A stretch of DNA of 64,000 nt, taken from contig NZ_CP099222.1 in NCBI RefSeq assembly GCF_029717145.1, positions 2,108,001 through 2,172,000 on the forward strand, given 5' to 3'. The notes under the pieces are model-generated. The model saw only the letters and a list, made by a program, of their open reading frames with translations. It ran no database searches and was not told where the DNA came from. The position numbers and the translations under genes were made by a program. Positions 9,839-63,033 of this stretch are shown here, in pieces (position 1 is the first letter of the stretch; each line of letters starts with the position of its first letter). Source of the DNA: Citrobacter freundii (GTDB lineage: Bacteria > Pseudomonadota > Gammaproteobacteria > Enterobacterales > Enterobacteriaceae).

Positions 9839-11055
9839 CATTTCCGATTGAAAAAGTGCGGGCCGATTTTCCGGTCCTGACCCGTGAAGTGAACGGCCTG
9901 CCGCTGGCGTATCTGGACAGCGCTGCCAGCGCGCAAAAGCCGAATCAGGTGATTGATGCCGAAGCTGAGTTTTACCGCCATGGCTATGCGGCGGTTCACC
10001 GTGGTATTCATACCTTAAGCGCCCAGGCGACGGAAAAAATGGAGAATGTGCGTAAGCTGGCGTCGCTGTTTATTAATGCCCGCTCCGCTGAAGAACTGGT
10101 ATTTGTGCGTGGCACGACCGAGGGCATTAATCTGGTAGCCAACAGTTGGGGCACCAGCAATGTGCGGGCGGGGGATAACATCATCATCAGTGAGATGGAA
10201 CACCACGCCAACATCGTGCCATGGCAGATGCTGTGTGCCCGCGTGGGTGCTGAGCTGCGTGTCATCCCCCTGAATGCTGATGGCACCTTGCAGTTGGATA
10301 CTCTGCCAACTCTGTTCGACGAACGCACCCAACTGCTGGCGATTACCCATGTATCCAACGTGCTGGGCACCGAAAACCCGTTAGCAGAGATGATTGCGCT
10401 GGCGCATCAGCACGGGGCAAAAGTGCTGGTCGATGGTGCGCAGGCGGTGATGCACCATAAAGTAGACGTGCAGGCGCTGGATTGCGACTTTTATGTCTTC
10501 TCCGCCCATAAGCTGTATGGACCCACCGGCATTGGCGTGCTGTATGCCCGTGAGTCGTTGTTGCAGGAGATGCCGCCCTGGGAAGGCGGGGGTTCAATGA
10601 TAGCAACGGTTAGCCTGAGCCAGGGAACCACCTGGACGAAAGCGCCGTGGCGTTTTGAAGCGGGAACGCCCAATACCGGCGGTATTATCGGCCTGGGCGC
10701 TGCCATTGAATATGTGAGTGCGCTGGGTCTGGATAACATCAGCGAGTACGAGCAGTTCATGATGTGCTACGCGCTAGAACAGCTGGCCAGTGTGCCGGAT
10801 CTGACGTTGTACGGTCCGCAGGCGCGTCTGGGCGTCATCGCGTTTAACCTCGGTAAACACCACGCCTACGACGTGGGTAGTTTTCTTGATAACTACGGTA
10901 TTGCCGTACGCACCGGGCACCACTGCGCCATGCCGTTGATGGCATATTATAACGTCCCTGCGATGTGCCGGGCCTCGATTGCCATGTACAACACTCAGGA
11001 AGAGGTGGATCGACTGGTAACGGGACTTAAACGTATTCATCACTTATTGGGATAA
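9835..11055 (+). CDS. sufS: SufS cysteine desulfurase
   Basis: PLP enzyme that takes sulfur from L-cysteine, giving alanine and a persulfide handed to SufE. It is 406 aa. The PLP lysine lies in [10 protein letters not shown] and the catalytic cysteine in [10 protein letters not shown] (Cys364 by E. coli numbering), typical of group II desulfurases. Its ATG overlaps the sufD stop in ATGA. Confidence 0.97.
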
Positions 11056-11067
11056 CAGGGAGGGGGT

Positions 11068-11484
11068 ATGGCTGCGCTACCGGATAAAGAAAAGTTGTTG
11101 CGTAATTTTCTGCGCTGCGCGAACTGGGAAGAGAAGTATCTGTATATCATTGAATTAGGTCAGCGTTTACCAGAATTAAATGCTGATGATCGCTGTGAGA
11201 AAAATAGTATTCAGGGCTGTCAGAGTCAGGTATGGATAACAATGCGTCAGAATGCTGACGGAATTATTGAATTACAGGGCGACAGTGATGCGGCAATTGT
11301 GAAAGGACTGATTGCTGTGGTATTCATTTTATATGATCGAATGACTGCCGAAGATATTGTGCGTTTTGATGTGCGTCCGTGGTTCGAGAAAATGGCGCTG
11401 ACGCAACATCTCACGCCATCGCGTTCACAGGGGCTGGAAGCGATGATTCGCGCTATTCGTACGCAAGCGGCAACTCTTAGCTAA
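11068..11484 (+). CDS. sufE: SufE sulfur acceptor
   Basis: Accepts the persulfide from SufS and delivers sulfur to SufB. It is 138 aa, with the acceptor Cys51 in [11 protein letters not shown] strong GGAGGGGG site precedes ATG 11068. Last gene of the suf operon. Confidence 0.97.
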
Positions 11485-11499
11485 ACTGATAAAACACGT

Positions 11500-11582
11500 T
11501 ATCCGGCAAACCTTGCAGGATAGCGCTGAGCAGATTTATGCAATGACTCGTCGGCCGGATACCGCAGCAGCCGTTATCCGGC
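11500..11582. repeat. Two adjacent hairpins between sufE and ldtE, REP-like
   Basis: The first hairpin (11500-11522) pairs TATCC-GCAA with TTGC-GGATA around one mismatch. The second (11554-11582) pairs GCCGGATA with TATCCGGC. Both carry the CCGGATA-type core of enterobacterial REP elements but no T tract. They probably mark the suf 3' end, protect it or weakly terminate transcription. The second ends only 10 bases before the ldtE ribosome binding site. Confidence 0.5.
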
Positions 11583-11607
11583 AATAACGCCAGGGGGGTG
11601 AGTGAGT

Positions 11608-12609
11608 ATGAAACGCGCGTCTATTATTACTCTAATGCTAATTGGCGCTTACAGCGCTATACAGGCCGCCTGGGCGGTCGATTATCCTTTGCCTGCGGCG
11701 AACAGTCGTCTTGTCGGGCAGAATCAAACCTACACCGTGCAGGAAGGCGATAAAAACTTGCAGGCAATAGCCCGCCGGTTTGATACCGCCGCGATGCTGA
11801 TCCTCGAAGCGAATAATACGATCGCCCCGGTACCCAGCCCCGGCACCCTGATTACGATTCCTTCGCAACTGCTGTTACCGGATGCGCCGCGCGAAGGTAT
11901 TATTGTTAATCTGGCAGAATTGCGTCTGTATTATTTCCCGCCGGGAGAGAATATTGTTCAGGTATTCCCGATTGGCATTGGTTTACAGGGACTGGAGACC
12001 CCGGTGATGGAAACTCGGGTGGGACAGAAAATCCCTAACCCTACATGGACCCCAACACCAGGCATCCGTAAGCGTTCTCTGGAGCGCGGCATTACGCTAC
12101 CCCCTGTAGTGCCCGCCGGGCCCAATAATCCGTTAGGACGCTTTGCGCTGCGTCTGGCGCATGGAAACGGTGAATACCTCATCCACGGTACCAGCGCACC
12201 CGACAGTGTAGGCCTGCGCGTCAGCTCTGGCTGTATTCGCATGAACGCGCCGGACATCAAAGCCCTGTTTGCTCAGGTCAGAATCGGCACGCCGGTCAGA
12301 GTGATTAATGAGCCGATAAAGTACGCCATCGAGCCTAACGGCATGCGTTATGTTGAAGTGCACCGACCATTGTCGCCAGAGGAAGAACAAAACGTACAGA
12401 CCATGCCGTATGTACTGCCTGCCGGTTTTACCCAGTTTAAAGACAGTAAAGCCGTAGACCTGGGGCTGGTGGATCGGGCGCTGTATCGTCGGGCAGGTTA
12501 TCCGGTTACCGTTACGGCCGGGCAGGCACCGATTGTGGCCAACGGGCCAGAGGTGAAGTCGGCACAGAATGGATTGCCAGAAGCAGGGGACGTGCGGACG
12601 ATGCAGTAA
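11608..12609 (+). CDS. ldtE: L,D-transpeptidase LdtE (YnhG)
   Basis: Periplasmic L,D-transpeptidase that forms 3-3 (mDap-mDap) crosslinks in peptidoglycan. It is 333 aa: signal peptide ending near AAWAVDY, a LysM-like domain ([17 protein letters not shown]), and a YkuD catalytic domain with HGT...SSGCIRM and catalytic Cys209. ATG 11608 is preferred over the in-frame GTG 11602 because the AGGGGGG site is correctly spaced only for the ATG. Confidence 0.93.
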
Positions 12610-12631
12610 CAGGGAAGGAGGAATGAAGGGC

Positions 12632-12661
12632 AAAAAAATGGCGCACAATGTGCGCCATTTC
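12632..12661 (-). terminator. lpp terminator
   Basis: Perfect stem ATGGCGCAC / GTGCGCCAT with a 3-base loop, followed on the minus strand by a run of seven T residues, just after the lpp stop. It is a canonical strong terminator. Confidence 0.9.
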
Positions 12662-12677
12662 TATTACACAGATACTA

Positions 12678-12926
<249 letters not shown>

Positions 12927-30111: not shown

Positions 30112-30373
30112 TCCTGAAAAGGGCGGTGGAGAAAGGCTACCGCCCTGTAATTCTGCCACGGTATTCTATCAATATATATAATTCATCTTTGAAAATAAAA
30201 AGTGCAGAAAAATGTATTTGTCGTTATGTATTATATTATATATCGATTAAAACAAACGCTTATATTTGGAGGTGTAATCACAAATATTTGTAATGCAGAT
30301 GAAATACTATTTCAACCTGCCTTAATGATAATAAATATCACTCCGCATTAATTATTCTCCTTCCCGTTTTTAC

Positions 30374-58332: not shown

Positions 58333-58366
58333 TGGCCGACGGTGGTACACATCGTCGGCTTTTTTG
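58333..58366 (+). terminator. Terminator after the GABA aminotransferase gene
   Basis: GCCGACG / CGTCGGC stem with an 11-base loop followed by six T residues. Confidence 0.88.
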
Positions 58367-58444
58367 TTCCTGTCGGTTTCTCAACGTCAATTGATCTTCA
58401 TCGGTAGAGTTACCTGATTATTGGAAATTCGTTGCCAAATACCT

Positions 58445-58468
58445 CGTTATATAATTTAATATATATCG
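58445..58468. promoter_or_regulatory. ModE-like operator over the promoter of the FecCD-type transporter
   Basis: CGT-TATAT-N7-TATAT-ATCG: an exact match to the ModE rule TATAT-N7-TAYAT with CG flanks close to those of the E. coli modA operator. It covers a possible -10, TTTAAT (58455-58460), placed 17 bases after TTGCCA (58432-58437). Its end lies about 27 bases before the start codon. Repression by molybdate-loaded ModE is inferred. Confidence 0.65.
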
Positions 58469-58494
58469 ATTTTTCTCCTGTCCAGATGGTATCT

Positions 58495-59550
58495 ATGTTA
58501 ACTCTTCGTTCATTTTTGCTGGTATGCGCCAGCATGTTGTTTGCGTTTTCGGCGCAGGCAGACCGCACGATAACCGATCAGCTTGGCCGCCAGGTCACGA
58601 TCCCCGATAGCGTCAATAAGGTGGTGGTGTTACAACACCAGACGCTGAATATTCTGGTTCAACTGGATGCCACGCAGGACATTGTCGGCGTGATGTCGAG
58701 CTGGAAAAAACAGCTTGGACCGGCGTTCGCCCGCTTTATGCCGACGATTACGACCCTGCCGACGCCGGGCGATCTCACCAGCGTGAATATTGAAAGCCTG
58801 CTGGCTATCCACCCGCAAGTGGTGTTTGTTGCCAACTATGCACCTGCCGAGATGATTCAGCAGATTCAGAATGCCGGGATTCCGGTGGTGGCTATCTCAT
58901 TACGTCAGGATGCTGCTGGCCAGCAGAACAAAATGAACCCGACTATGGCTGACGAAGAGCAGGTCTACAACGAAGGCTTAAAGCAGGGGATTCGCCTGAT
59001 TGCCGACGTGGTGGGACGTAAACCGCAGGCTGAAACGCTGATCGACTACGTTTTTTCGGCCAGGGCTAAATTCAATGCGCCGGTAGCGGCGATTGCACAG
59101 GCGCAAAAAGTCCGTATCTATATGGCCAACCCCGATCTCATGACTTACGGTGCCGGAAAGTACACGGGCCTGATGATGCAGCATGTCGGAGGGCTAAACG
59201 TGGCGGCGGCGAGCGTTAAAGGCGCGCGGCAGGTTTCGCTGGAGCAGGTGTTAGCGTGGAACCCTCAGGTGATTTTTGTCCAGGAGCGCTACCCGCAGGT
59301 GGTGACGGAGATCCTAAACGATCCCAACTGGCAGAACATCGATGCGGTAAAAAATCATCGCGTCTGGCTGATGCCGGAATACGCCAAAGCCTGGGGATAT
59401 CCGATGCCGGAAGCGCTGGCGCTGGGTGAATTGTGGATGGCAAAAAAACTCTATCCGGATGCCTATAAAAACATCGATGTTGATGCGCAGGCACAGGATT
59501 ACTACCACCGTTTTTACCGCGTGAACTGGCAGTCCGATGCCGCTAAGTAA
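58495..59550 (+). CDS. Periplasmic binding protein of a FecCD-type ABC transporter (probable molybdate/tungstate)
   Basis: 351-aa class III (BtuF/FepB-like) binding protein with a signal peptide ending near FSAQADRTITDQLGRQV. Such proteins usually carry ferric siderophores, cobalamin or, in the MolA type, molybdate and tungstate. The ModE-like box upstream and the ModA-like gene downstream favour the oxyanion reading. The start is uncertain: ATG 58495 is chosen (AGATGG 7 bases upstream); ATG 58486 and a longer frame from 58432 are open, but the latter runs through the ModE box. It overlaps the permease gene by 14 bases. Confidence 0.75.
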   Translation: MLTLRSFLLVCASMLFAFSAQADRTITDQLGRQVTIPDSVNKVVVLQHQTLNILVQLDATQDIVGVMSSWKKQLGPAFARFMPTITTLPTPGDLTSVNIESLLAIHPQVVFVANYAPAEMIQQIQNAGIPVVAISLRQDAAGQQNKMNPTMADEEQVYNEGLKQGIRLIADVVGRKPQAETLIDYVFSARAKFNAPVAAIAQAQKVRIYMANPDLMTYGAGKYTGLMMQHVGGLNVAAASVKGARQVSLEQVLAWNPQVIFVQERYPQVVTEILNDPNWQNIDAVKNHRVWLMPEYAKAWGYPMPEALALGELWMAKKLYPDAYKNIDVDAQAQDYYHRFYRVNWQSDAAK

Positions 59551-60541
59551 TCGCGCTTTCCCCCTGCAACCGATACTGATTACCGTGGTGCTACTGCTGG
59601 GTGTTGGTTCACTGTGTGTGGGGCAATATCCGCTGTCGCTGCGCGATGTGTTCTCACTGCTGAGCCATTACGCAGACTCGCAGGGTATGGCGCACCAGGT
59701 CGTCTGGACCGTCAGACTCCCGCGTATTTTGATGGCACTGCTGGCGGGCGGCGCGCTGGGGTTATGTGGGGCTACGCTGCAAGGCGTGTTTCATAATCCG
59801 CTGGTGGACCCGCATATTATTGGGGTGACCTCTGGCTCAGCATTTGGCGGCACGCTGGCGATTTTGCTTGGGCTTGATCCGTTCCTGATGATGGGGTCGA
59901 CGTTCTTCTTTGGTCTGGCGGCGTTGATTCTGGTATATGCCATTGCCGCACTACAGGGGCTGGAAAACACGCTGGTGCTGATCCTCTCGGGCATTATTTT
60001 GAGTGGTTTTTTTGCCGCGCTGGTGAGCCTGATTCAATACCAGGCCGATACCGAAGAGACGTTACCCAGCATTGTATTCTGGTTGTTGGGCAGTTTTGCG
60101 ACCGCCAACTGGCATAAAGTGTGGCTGCTGGCGGTGCCGGTCGGCATTGCGGCCATGCTGTTGTACCAGTTGCGCTGGCGAATCAACCTGTTATCACTCA
60201 ACGATAAAGACGCCAAAGCGCTCGGGGTGGCGGTGGTTCCGCTGCGGCGCAGCGTGTTGCTGTGCTGCGCATTGCTGGTTGCGGCGCAGGTCTCCGTCAG
60301 CGGCAGTATTGCCTGGGTGGGGCTGGTGATCCCGCATCTGGCCCGCCTGCTGGTAGGCGTTGATCACCGTCGGTTACTCCCCTGCGCTTTCTGGCTGGGC
60401 GGCGGTTTTATGATTGTGGTAGATGATATTGCCCGCACGCTGCTACCTGCGGAAATTCCTCTGGGGATCATCACCGCCTTGCTCGGCGCGCCGCTGTTTG
60501 CCTTTTTGCTGATTCAGTCCAGCCGACGGGGGAAACGATGA
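59537..60541 (+). CDS. FecCD/BtuC-family ABC permease
   Basis: 334-aa inner-membrane permease with about ten helices and the family motifs RLPRILMALLAGGALGLCGATLQG and GLVIPHLARLLVG. It forms the channel of the transporter. It overlaps both neighbours (14 and 4 bases), so the three genes are tightly coupled. Confidence 0.87.
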   Translation: MPLSNRAFPLQPILITVVLLLGVGSLCVGQYPLSLRDVFSLLSHYADSQGMAHQVVWTVRLPRILMALLAGGALGLCGATLQGVFHNPLVDPHIIGVTSGSAFGGTLAILLGLDPFLMMGSTFFFGLAALILVYAIAALQGLENTLVLILSGIILSGFFAALVSLIQYQADTEETLPSIVFWLLGSFATANWHKVWLLAVPVGIAAMLLYQLRWRINLLSLNDKDAKALGVAVVPLRRSVLLCCALLVAAQVSVSGSIAWVGLVIPHLARLLVGVDHRRLLPCAFWLGGGFMIVVDDIARTLLPAEIPLGIITALLGAPLFAFLLIQSSRRGKR

Positions 60542-61290
60542 TATCTGCCGCACTTAACGTCGATCAGCTGGAGTATGGTTACCGGATGCCGTTGTTTGCG
60601 CCGCTCACGTTCCGCTGTGAGAAAGGTAATATCTGGGCCGTGCTCGGGCGTAACGGTTTGGGGAAGAGCACGTTGCTGGATACGCTGACCGGTACGCTGC
60701 CGTTGTTGGGTGGAAACATACAAAGTGAGGGGGGAATGGGTATTGTGGCGCAGCATACGCGCTTACCGTTTCCCTACACCGTTAGCGATGTCGTGCTGAT
60801 GGGCCGCGCGCAGCATGTAAAGTTATTTGCTCAACCGGGCCAGCAGGATAAAAAGCGGGCGATGCAGGCGCTGGAGCAGCTCAATATTGCGCATCTTGCG
60901 TCCTGTACCTTTTGTTCACTTTCCGGCGGGCAGCAACAGTTGGTAATGATCGCCCGGGCGTTGGTCACGGATTGTCAAACGCTGTTGCTTGATGAACCCT
61001 GTTCCGCGCTGGATTTAGCCAATCAGCAGGTGGTGCTGCAGCTTATCAGCGATCTGGCGTATCGCCAGGGCTGCAGCATTCTCTTTACAACGCACGATCC
61101 GCAGCATGCACTACAGATAGCCAGTCATACGCTGCTGTTGTTGCCGCAGGGGAGATGGCTGGCGGGGCCAACTCAGGAGATTGTGACGGAAGATAATTTG
61201 TTCCAGGCGTACGGTTTACCGCTGCGAAAATTTAGCGTGGACCCGCATCCGACGCCGTTTATCGCGCCGCTGTTTACCATTCATCGTTAA
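60538..61290 (+). CDS. ABC transporter ATPase (FepC/MolC-like)
   Basis: 250-aa ATPase with Walker A GRNGLGKST, signature LSGGQQQLVM and Walker B LLLDEPCSALD. The FepC/MolC type fits the FecCD permease. Its ATG overlaps the permease stop in ATGA. Its 3' end overlaps that of the convergent ModA-like gene by 17 bases. Confidence 0.87.
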   Translation: MISAALNVDQLEYGYRMPLFAPLTFRCEKGNIWAVLGRNGLGKSTLLDTLTGTLPLLGGNIQSEGGMGIVAQHTRLPFPYTVSDVVLMGRAQHVKLFAQPGQQDKKRAMQALEQLNIAHLASCTFCSLSGGQQQLVMIARALVTDCQTLLLDEPCSALDLANQQVVLQLISDLAYRQGCSILFTTHDPQHALQIASHTLLLLPQGRWLAGPTQEIVTEDNLFQAYGLPLRKFSVDPHPTPFIAPLFTIHR

Positions 61291-61999
61291 GTGTTTTAAA
61301 ACCGGCGCTGGCCAAACATGTTTGTCCGTCGCGCGCGAGGATAAAATCAACCAGCGCTTTGACGTTTTTAGACGCCTCGAGCACCGCCAGCTGGTATTCA
61401 CAGCGAATGTTATGGTCCGTGGGGATCGTTACGCAGCGAATATCGGGCTGCCCGGCAAGTGCTGTTGCATAGTGCGCGTAGCCAATAAACAAATCCGCCA
61501 GGCCCTGGCGAATAATCCACGCGCTGGCCAGTTCGCCATTTGGCACCTTAACCGTGTCACGGCCACCGACAAGGGGAATAGCGCGTTCGCGCAGGCGCTG
61601 TCCAAGGCCGGGTTCGAGCACATCTAGGCTGTCGAATAATGCCCAGGTATAATCCCCGGAAGGGTCACAGCCGGGGGTTGAGGTGCCAATACGCAGGGTT
61701 GGATCTCGCAGTAACTCCAGCCATTCGCCGGTTTTGCGGGTGGTGAGGCTCAGTTGGTTCCAGCAAAAGGTATGCGCGGACAGTGCCCTACCGCTGGCCA
61801 GCAACTGCTGCGGATGTGCACGATTGGCCGAGGCAAATAAGGCACAAGGTTCACCGGCTTCTATACGTTCGCGTAATAATCCGGCCGGGCCGTATTCCAC
61901 ACAAACGTCAATTCCGCTTAGAGACGTGAACTGGTTTATCAGCGGGGTAAAGGCCAGCCGTAAACTGCCAGCAGCGAAGAGCGTGATGGGGCATGACAT
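61274..61999 (-). CDS. ModA-like oxyanion-binding protein without a signal peptide
   Basis: 241-aa type II solute-binding protein of the molybdate-binding (ModA/WtpA-like) group. FAAGSL at residues 8-13, GPAGLLRERIEAGEPCALFASAN and the late PNGELASAWIIRQGLADLFIGYAHYA segment follow the ModA pattern. It begins directly with the mature-like strand MSCPITLFAAGS and has no signal peptide, so it should stay in the cytoplasm. It could be a molybdate or tungstate store or sensor, or a gene that lost its signal. It is convergent with the FecCD transporter. Confidence 0.72.
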   Translation of the reverse strand: MSCPITLFAAGSLRLAFTPLINQFTSLSGIDVCVEYGPAGLLRERIEAGEPCALFASANRAHPQQLLASGRALSAHTFCWNQLSLTTRKTGEWLELLRDPTLRIGTSTPGCDPSGDYTWALFDSLDVLEPGLGQRLRERAIPLVGGRDTVKVPNGELASAWIIRQGLADLFIGYAHYATALAGQPDIRCVTIPTDHNIRCEYQLAVLEASKNVKALVDFILARDGQTCLASAGFKTLNDEW

Positions 62000-62098: not shown

Positions 62099-63033
62099 TT
62101 ATCTGGGTAATAATTTTTTTAAGATATTAACAATTGAATTAATGATTAGCTGTACCCGGAAAGGCTGCTGTGTCTTTTTACTGTAAATCACAAACAGATC
62201 CAGATGGGTGGAGAAGTTATCAGGAAGTGTAGGGGCCAGACCGTCGATATCTGTTTCTTTAATGATCAACTCGGGCATAAATAAATAACCAAGACCCGCT
62301 TTGGCGAGTTCGATTGCGGCATACGAGTTATCGCAGGCAAAATCACCGCTAATGATTATCTTTCTTATTTTTTTATGTGAGTCGTCATTTATATACCAGA
62401 TGTTATGATTGTCTTCCATATGTGAGAAAAAAGTATACAGGGACTGTGTCCATAATCTTCAATGGAGTGGATCGGATATCTCGCAATCATGTCGCGGGTG
62501 CCATATATATTGGCCGGAATCGATGCGATATTTCGCGCAATAAGTTCGTCATTGTCGGGCAATGAATGCGTAAACAAGATGTCGCAGTCATCACTAAAAG
62601 GGACGCCAAGGGTAAATTCAGCGTTGCTGAGGTTACTGGTGGTCAGCATTAATTTAATTTCCGGATGCTGCGCTTTCAACCCAGGAATGACGTACTTGGA
62701 GATAAATAACAGCTGACCGGTAGGGGCATGGATCCTGACAAACCCATCAGACGCCAGCTTATAGGCCATTGTAAACTTCTGGATATCTTCACATGACTTC
62801 ATGTGTTTTTTGACGTAGGGGAGAAGCTCTTCACCGAAACGGGTCAATTTTATCGGCCGACAAGAGCGATCGAACACGGAGAATCCAAAACGGTCCTCCA
62901 GTTGTTGTAAGGTTCTACTGATATTGGGTTGCGCAATTTTTAGCGTTTCCGCAGCCAGACTCAAACTACGGGTACACGAAAGTTCATAAAGGATACGGAG
63001 TTCGTTATCGTTAAAGCTGATTTTCTGGACCAC
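62099..63033 (-). pseudogene. LysR-type regulator gene interrupted by a frameshift
   Basis: Two overlapping frames together make one normal LysR protein of about 310 aa. The upstream frame (63033 to 62389) carries the HTH (RSLSLAAETLKIAQPNISRTLQQLEDRFG) and half of the effector domain, then ends in off-family residues SHIWKTIITSGI. The other frame continues as SHMEDNHNIWYINDDS to 62099. The switch occurs near a run of six A residues at 62427-62432 (T6 on the coding strand) and equals a one-base loss. It is a recent inactivation, a sequencing error or, less likely, programmed slippage. Confidence 0.75.

Follow-up and report, generated by a model that had tools for sequence, protein, structure and literature searches.

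The operon studied here raises a question of cargo. In many enterobacteria, automatic annotation gives it the name of an iron or B12 transporter, and a ModE-like box lies in front of it with a ModA-like gene at its end. The locus was analyzed within a window of 64,000 nucleotides from Citrobacter freundii. The evidence re-assigns the operon, here called mol, to molybdenum/tungsten supply: MolABC is very probably a type II (BtuCDF-fold) molybdate/tungstate importer that stands beside modABC, is repressed by ModE, and has a probably cytosolic ModA-like partner. The transporter itself is of a known kind, and the new points are the ModE control and the partner without a signal peptide.

Identity of the molABC genes

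Three overlapping genes were found on the plus strand. The first, molA (58495-59550), encodes a periplasmic class III binding protein (SBP) of 351 aa (PF01497) with the signal peptide MLTLRSFLLVCASMLFAFSAQA. It is overlapped by molB (59537-60541), which encodes a FecCD-type permease (PF01032, E=1.7e-87), and molB in turn is overlapped by molC (60538-61290), which encodes an ATPase of 250 aa (PF00005). No TOBE regulatory domain was found with Pfam profiles in the 250 aa of MolC. Upstream, a terminator-like hairpin at 58334..58360 on the plus strand (11 pairs and then a T-run in a consensus scan) ends the 4-aminobutyrate transaminase gene (NF007308) and sets mol apart from it.

The best Pfam and NCBIfam names for the mol genes are generic iron/B12 families, as would be seen if the operon encoded an iron-siderophore, haem or cobalamin importer and the AT-rich ModE-like palindrome in front of it had arisen by chance. 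However, none of the iron/B12 equivalog cut-offs in NCBIfam was passed, and the scores were all far below them (BtuF, 26.7 vs 234 bits; BtuC, 223 vs 461 bits; FecE, 104 vs 375 bits). MolA matched Haemophilus influenzae MolA (3psa/3psh) with E=8e-134 over residues 22-347, the full mature length. An iron/B12 transporter was rejected on these two grounds, and we consider this reading barely credible.

The preliminary description had proposed that a MolBCA-type importer was hidden behind the iron- and B12-like names. This was supported by the MolA orthology, by the gene order molA-molB-molC common to Citrobacter and Haemophilus-type genomes, and by the 135 of 326 MolA positions that are retained in at least 95% of 99 MolA sequences, H. 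influenzae MolA included. Both presumed permease-docking Glu positions of MolA are invariant (98/98 sequences), and MolB and MolC match the Haemophilus-type counterparts of locus L183 at 52% and 47%. With an orthologous MolA, a FecCD permease and a BtuD-like ATPase in the same order, the cluster is like H. influenzae MolABC (HI1470-HI1472). On the sequence evidence, it is the Citrobacter equivalent of that molybdate importer, and the preliminary interpretation was largely right.

A ModE box over the predicted molA promoter

The sequence TATAT-N7-TATAT spans 58448-58464, and CG dinucleotides flank it at 58445-58446 and at 58467-58468. The putative ModE operator, to which no strand was assigned, occupies 58443..58470 as the palindrome CG-TTATATA-ATTTAA-TATATAT-CG and covers the -10; the minus-strand reading of these 28 bp is ATCGATATATATTAAATTATATAACGAG. 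The preliminary description had held that this arrangement fits the ModE rule and had suggested a motif scan. The consensus scored was ATCGnTATATA-N6-TATATAACGAT, with 21 fixed positions, and a form with TATATAnCGAT has been published (PMC545781). The mol box matched 20 of the 21 positions and was the best match in the window.

The earlier placement of the box over the likely -10 also held. A likely sigma-70 promoter was predicted on the plus strand at 58432..58460, the best pairing in the region with 10/12 matches, and consists of the -35 TTGCCA (58432-58437), a spacer of 17 bp and the -10 TTTAAT (58455-58460), which the box overlaps. Another possible -10 for molA is TATAAT at 58450-58455. 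A stricter promoter scan did not include the predicted molA promoter in its list.

The box is like the Escherichia coli ModE operators of modA, moaA, dmsA and napF, with their palindrome CG-n-TATATA-N6-TATATA-n-CG, and each of these four promoters bears a box in the present genome too. Its position over the predicted -10 is what a repressed promoter would lead one to expect. Unlike the operators named, its target is a FecCD-type importer, and our literature search found no paper naming mol as a ModE target.

Only two exact matches to the core CGNTATATANNNNNNTATATANCG were found in the 4.74 Mb genome, the mol box and one site upstream of yghW/hybO. In the genome pattern search, the mol core CGnTATATA-N6-TATATAnCG had 0 mismatches, and its peers at 0-2 mismatches genome-wide included the textbook ModE targets napF, dmsA, moaA and modA. 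At up to 3 mismatches, matches to the pattern were no more numerous than to the control and, therefore, weight was given only to sites with at most 2 mismatches.

Of 80 named related loci, 79 have a ModE box in front of molA; the exception, L078, is a Spirochaetaceae MAG. The box is conserved through Enterobacterales and Pasteurellaceae. The CG/TATA columns of the box core are retained in nearly all 80 loci. As a null, 752 other 250-bp windows from the 80 loci were scored; their best scores averaged 10.3, and only one window reached 15 or more. A chance origin of the box was rejected on the basis of this comparison and the exact genome matches, and the presence of the box before molA in nearly every relative marks it as a conserved operator. 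An intact ModE is encoded beside modA (NF007957, 504 bits vs a cut-off of 369).

Molybdate was reported to repress H. influenzae molB 10-fold through "an unknown factor" (Rice et al. 2014, PMC4031551). The head of the Haemophilus-type mol operon bears a ModE box (16/21), and the evidence points to ModE as the likely factor behind the mol repression seen by Rice et al. (2014). Together, the conserved box, the intact ModE and the reported molB repression support the earlier suggestion of ModE control, from which we infer ModE binding and the direction of regulation.

The preliminary description had also cited TtrA and YdhV as molybdopterin enzymes in the same window. Both are present, but a genome of this sort has many Mo enzymes and, thus, their proximity is weak evidence for a molybdate importer. 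No ModE box was found at ttr (11/21 at best); ydhY-ydhV does bear one.

A ModA-like protein without a signal peptide

The gene at 61274..61999 on the minus strand encodes a ModA-like oxyanion-binding-type protein of 241 aa (SBP_bac_11, PF13531, E=7e-38). It is convergent with molC, their 3' ends overlap by 17 bp, and its other neighbor is a lysR-type gene; no modB or modC was found among its neighbors. The ModA-like gene noted earlier at the end of the transporter is present. It has no box of its own in the window, and its product, which lacks a signal peptide, is not a second periplasmic binding protein. The protein sequence opens directly at the first strand, and no in-frame upstream start exists in the window or in the identical copy L002, so that a signal peptide hidden behind such a start was rejected. 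The signal peptide is absent in all of about 70 mol-linked copies, and the ModA-like protein is probably in the cytosol because the export signal is absent.

The arrangement of the gene varies. In the window, the best ModE match before it (12/21) was at the null level. Four Klebsiella loci (L036, L038, L043 and L044) carry a ModE box of its own (17-18/21) at about -35, and in Pectobacterium, Rahnella and Pasteurellaceae the gene is co-directional and directly downstream. The Haemophilus mol cluster includes a 'modA', HI1469 (PMC3928620), and in the Haemophilus-type loci examined the protein lacks a signal. In those genomes, the mol genes come after another ModA-type gene, a permease, an ATPase and modD, all within a single run with a ModE box; in Citrobacter, by contrast, molABC is separate and has a box to itself, and the ModA-like gene is not co-directional but convergent. 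The gene is linked to molA in 87 of 98 classified loci and missing from some mol loci (L016, L184, L188, L192 and L194) and, thus, is accessory.

The closest fold to the AF2 model (pLDDT 96.3) was E. coli ModA (1wod, TM 0.78), and the TIGR01256 score of 62.0 was just under the cut-off of 62.5. We take the oxyanion contacts of E. coli ModA to be Ser12, Ser39 and Tyr170. The ModA-like protein resembles periplasmic ModA (1amf/1wod) in fold and in the first of these, Ser12, which is invariant. It differs in its 24% identity, missing signal peptide, Ser39 to Ala replacement and lack of a modBC partner, and the position of Tyr170 is ambiguous in the alignment.

One alternative is that the ModA-like gene is no functional partner of mol but a duplicated modA in decay, with its signal peptide gone. 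The gene is missing from some mol loci and the L054 copy is truncated, as decay would predict, but the reading frames are otherwise intact, 22 columns of the alignment are invariant and the model has a pLDDT of 96. The signal-less form is also retained from Enterobacteriaceae to Pasteurellaceae, is preceded by a separate ModE box in Klebsiella, and stays beside molA where molBC is gone, which makes decay very unlikely. Another role would be that of a MolBC regulator replacing the TOBE (trans-inhibition) domain absent from MolC. Such a role would suit a probably cytosolic protein linked to molBC; nevertheless, we find it quite unlikely given that the protein persists with MolA in genomes without a MolBC orthologue (best FecCD match, 38% identity). 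Most likely, the ModA-like protein would serve as a cytosolic carrier or buffer of molybdate or tungstate, and it is flagged here as a conserved, unstudied, probably cytosolic ModA-fold binding protein of bacterial molybdenum homeostasis.

Proposed mechanism and cargo

When cytosolic molybdate is plentiful, ModE-molybdate would sit on 58443-58470 over the -10 and block molABC transcription, as it does for modA. Under molybdate scarcity, transcription would be turned on. MolA would then capture the oxyanion in the periplasm and dock on MolB2C2, which would import it, and the ModA-like protein would probably bind the incoming oxyanion in the cytosol on its way to cofactor synthesis.

FecCD-type importers usually carry chelates, and the mol proteins belong to the FecCD/class III family. 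The physiological cargo could therefore be a molybdate/tungstate chelate, such as a catecholate complex, in which case ModE control would serve scavenging and the low affinity for the free oxyanion would be incidental. H. influenzae MolA is quoted as binding free molybdate weakly, with a Kd of about 100 uM (PMC3928620), and deletion of mol left uptake at low molybdate unaffected (PMC4031551). This is odd for a scarcity-induced importer, and the scarcity-type operator sharpens the paradox of a binding protein with an affinity of only about 100 uM. However, with 100 uM free molybdate, uptake is higher when the mol system is present (PMC4031551). H. influenzae MolA also gave crystals with molybdate and tungstate, which we take 3psa/3psh to be, and an unsystematic look noticed no chelate-synthesis or TonB receptor gene directly beside the loci. 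We therefore regard a chelate cargo as unlikely and favor the free oxyanion. Counting against this main reading are the weak MolA affinity, the unchanged low-molybdate uptake after mol deletion, the optional ModA-like gene, its missing box and the replacement of Ser39 by Ala.

MolA and the ModA-like protein without MolBC

In the Rahnella/Rouxiella/Ewingella lineage, MolA and the ModA-like protein were found as a ModE-boxed pair. No MolBC orthologue was detected in eight such pair-only genomes searched. Decay of MolA to a non-transport role in genomes lacking MolBC was unsupported, as none of the 21 rows without MolB departs from Glu at either presumed docking position. It is possible, if somewhat doubtful, that mol is a two-compartment molybdate/tungstate relay, in which periplasmic MolA is joined by a cytosolic ModA-type partner that passes the oxyanion to cofactor synthesis, and that what one lineage has conserved as a unit is the pair rather than MolBC. 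The pair would then persist behind a ModE box in Rahnella, Rouxiella, Ewingella and some E. coli, and might use another FecCD permease where MolBC orthologues are lacking. A ModE-controlled substitute was not found, with no FecCD match near the ModE sites listed, which left out G229, G239 and G343.

Relatives of the ModA-like protein that bear a signal (e.g. L114, L129, L210 and L225) are about 35-39% identical to it. L114 and L129, the two aligned, share its STP..DP.GDY motif. Unlike the ModA-like protein, these four relatives have kept the signal peptide and have no linked MolA orthologue. The neighbor of the L210 relative resembles a tungstate-binding protein of the type that we presume to be TupA.

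The mol operon and its predicted ModE operator

The binding protein matched Haemophilus influenzae MolA (3psa) over its mature length with E=8e-134, the next solved structure being at E=1.6e-29. Every NCBIfam iron and B12 model fell far under its cut-off and, therefore, an iron or B12 transporter was rejected. On these grounds, orthology and gene order place the transporter in MolBCA, an already known type found here at a new location, as the preliminary description had proposed from sequence features.

The three molABC genes (58495-61290, + strand) overlap. Their products are a class III binding protein that carries a signal peptide, a permease of the FecCD type and an ATPase lacking a TOBE domain. 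They are met by the convergent ModA-like gene (61274-61999, - strand). The nearest named relative of this genome is C. gillenii, whose MolA is 99% identical. The neighboring lysR-type gene (62099-63033, - strand) is split by a frameshift here and is open in C. gillenii (locus L002).

Upstream of mol, a terminator-like hairpin closes a 4-aminobutyrate transaminase gene and, thus, transcription of mol probably starts from a separate promoter. The top sigma-70 pairing predicted before mol was TTGCCA-17-TTTAAT, which was absent from the list of a stricter promoter scan. Its -10 is overlaid by a 28-bp palindrome (58443-58470) that agrees with the published ModE consensus at 20 of 21 fixed positions. 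A box was found within 250 bp of molA in 79 of 80 named loci with a molA relative, counting locus L072, which is boxed under one of the start-codon placements only; the sole unboxed locus was a Spirochaetaceae MAG. Conservation reached 76-80 of the 80 loci at the CG columns and at most of the TATA columns, with C for T tolerated in the right half-site. Control windows (n=752) had a mean score of 10.3, and one scored at least 15. The mol box is most likely a real ModE operator, and the earlier claim of a ModE-like box before a FecCD-type transporter held up in consensus match, position over the predicted -10 and conservation.

Two exact matches to the core pattern were found in the genome: the mol box and a site (G000:C1:702838-702861, locus L082) upstream of a yghW-like small gene and hybO, the hydrogenase-2 small subunit gene. 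Sites with one or two mismatches lay by napF, ydhY, dmsA, moaA, modA and a small gene. Four of these sites are textbook ModE targets. This small gene encodes a membrane protein and comes after an aldehyde dehydrogenase gene; the site upstream of it (G000:C1:136507-136530, locus L088) has two mismatches. At up to three mismatches the pattern gave 18 matches compared to 29 for the reversed control, so weight was given to the strong sites only. The window holds a second strong ModE box (30220-30247, 19/21). It lies about 400 bp ahead of ydhY, whose operon encodes the molybdopterin enzyme YdhV; in an E. coli strain, a 17/21 counterpart precedes ydhY by 358 bp.

Among Pasteurellaceae, L190 carries an 18/21 box immediately before molA. 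L183 and L184 have a 16/21 box at the start of a run comprising a second periplasmic ModA-type gene, permease, ATPase, a modD-position gene and molABC (gene names from PMC3928620), and in L183 the ModA-like gene stands last. Pasteurellaceae locus L186 has an additional FecCD-type transporter adjoining mol (9965-12844) with its own upstream ModE-like box (16/21). Its permease is ~40% identical to MolB and its binding protein ~25% to MolA; it is perhaps another Mo or W importer.

A ModA-like partner without an export signal

The ModA-like protein starts right at the first beta-strand (MSCPITLFAAGSL), and no usable upstream start was found for its gene. The signal peptide is also missing in ~70 mol-linked homologues, including those of Pectobacterium, Rahnella, Hafnia, and Orbaceae-like and Pasteurellaceae genomes; homologues in other genera that are not linked to MolA have one. 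In the tree, one change can account for the signal-less proteins, with modest support (68/99). The structure was predicted confidently (pLDDT 96.3), the closest match being E. coli ModA with tungstate (1wod, TM 0.78), and the family shares a specific conserved motif, STP..DPSGDY. The ModA-like gene previously described beside the transporter is present with a predicted ModA fold, but it is signal-less and convergent.

We classified 98 loci (ARRANGEMENTS), a few of which are the same genome reached twice. molABC occurred with the ModA-like gene in 69, and molA with the ModA-like gene but no molBC nearby in 18. Eight, one of them truncated at a contig end, had molB and/or molC without the ModA-like gene; three, two of them truncated likewise, had neither molBC nor the ModA-like gene. 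The ModA-like gene is convergent in Enterobacteriaceae, follows molC in Pectobacterium, some Serratia, and Orbaceae-like and Pasteurellaceae genomes, and directly follows molA in Rahnella, Rouxiella and Ewingella. Four Klebsiella species (K. spallanzanii, K. indica, K. oxytoca and K. michiganensis) carry a separate ModE box for the convergent gene, at about -35 and scoring 17-18/21. Kluyvera has a 13-14/21 match at a near-constant position before the gene, which may be a degenerate remnant of such a box. None of the gene's own was found in the window.

Proposed regulation and function

Most likely, ModE-molybdate would cover the -10 and repress molABC, and Mo scarcity would open it. MolA and MolB2C2 would then most likely bring in molybdate or tungstate, and the signal-less protein would most likely bind the imported oxyanion inside the cell. 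In H. influenzae, molB is repressed 10-fold when molybdate is added, and the authors invoke an unknown factor to explain this (PMC4031551); the finding fits the proposed ModE regulation. The main tension for an importer opened by scarcity is that deletion of H. influenzae mol had no effect at low molybdate (PMC4031551) and that MolA has an affinity of ~100 uM (PMC3928620). Either the mol system would catch pulses, as the H. influenzae authors propose, or its true cargo would be a chelate. As far as the literature searched shows, which included few subscription papers, the conserved mol ModE operator, the family-wide signal-less ModA-type partner and the MolBC-less pairs are new; any of them may have been mentioned before, for instance in a regulon database.

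molA and ModA-like pairs without MolBC

Eight complete genomes that carry such a pair had a best FecCD permease just 38% identical to MolB, compared to 52-60% for true orthologues. The MolA proteins of these pairs form one clade (100/100) plus one separate Pasteurellaceae case (L193). Two Glu positions, which we take to be the permease-docking residues by analogy with BtuF, were invariant in 21 of 21 MolA rows without MolB, a few of them from short-cut contigs. Thus, MolA in MolBC-less genomes probably docks on another FecCD permease.

A molA relative was found in 46 of 5426 E. coli genomes. In E. coli 95-3322, a 19/21 box precedes molA and the gene for the signal-less protein, and the accompanying FecCD pair is divergent and non-orthologous (34% and 31%). 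Pasteurellaceae locus L188 (6153-7199) has molA alone, with neither molBC nor the ModA-like gene, and a 15/21 ModE-like box. E. coli strain B18271 (L196, 4876-6685) retains a molA remnant with a 16/21 ModE-like box, ended by an IS5 insertion.
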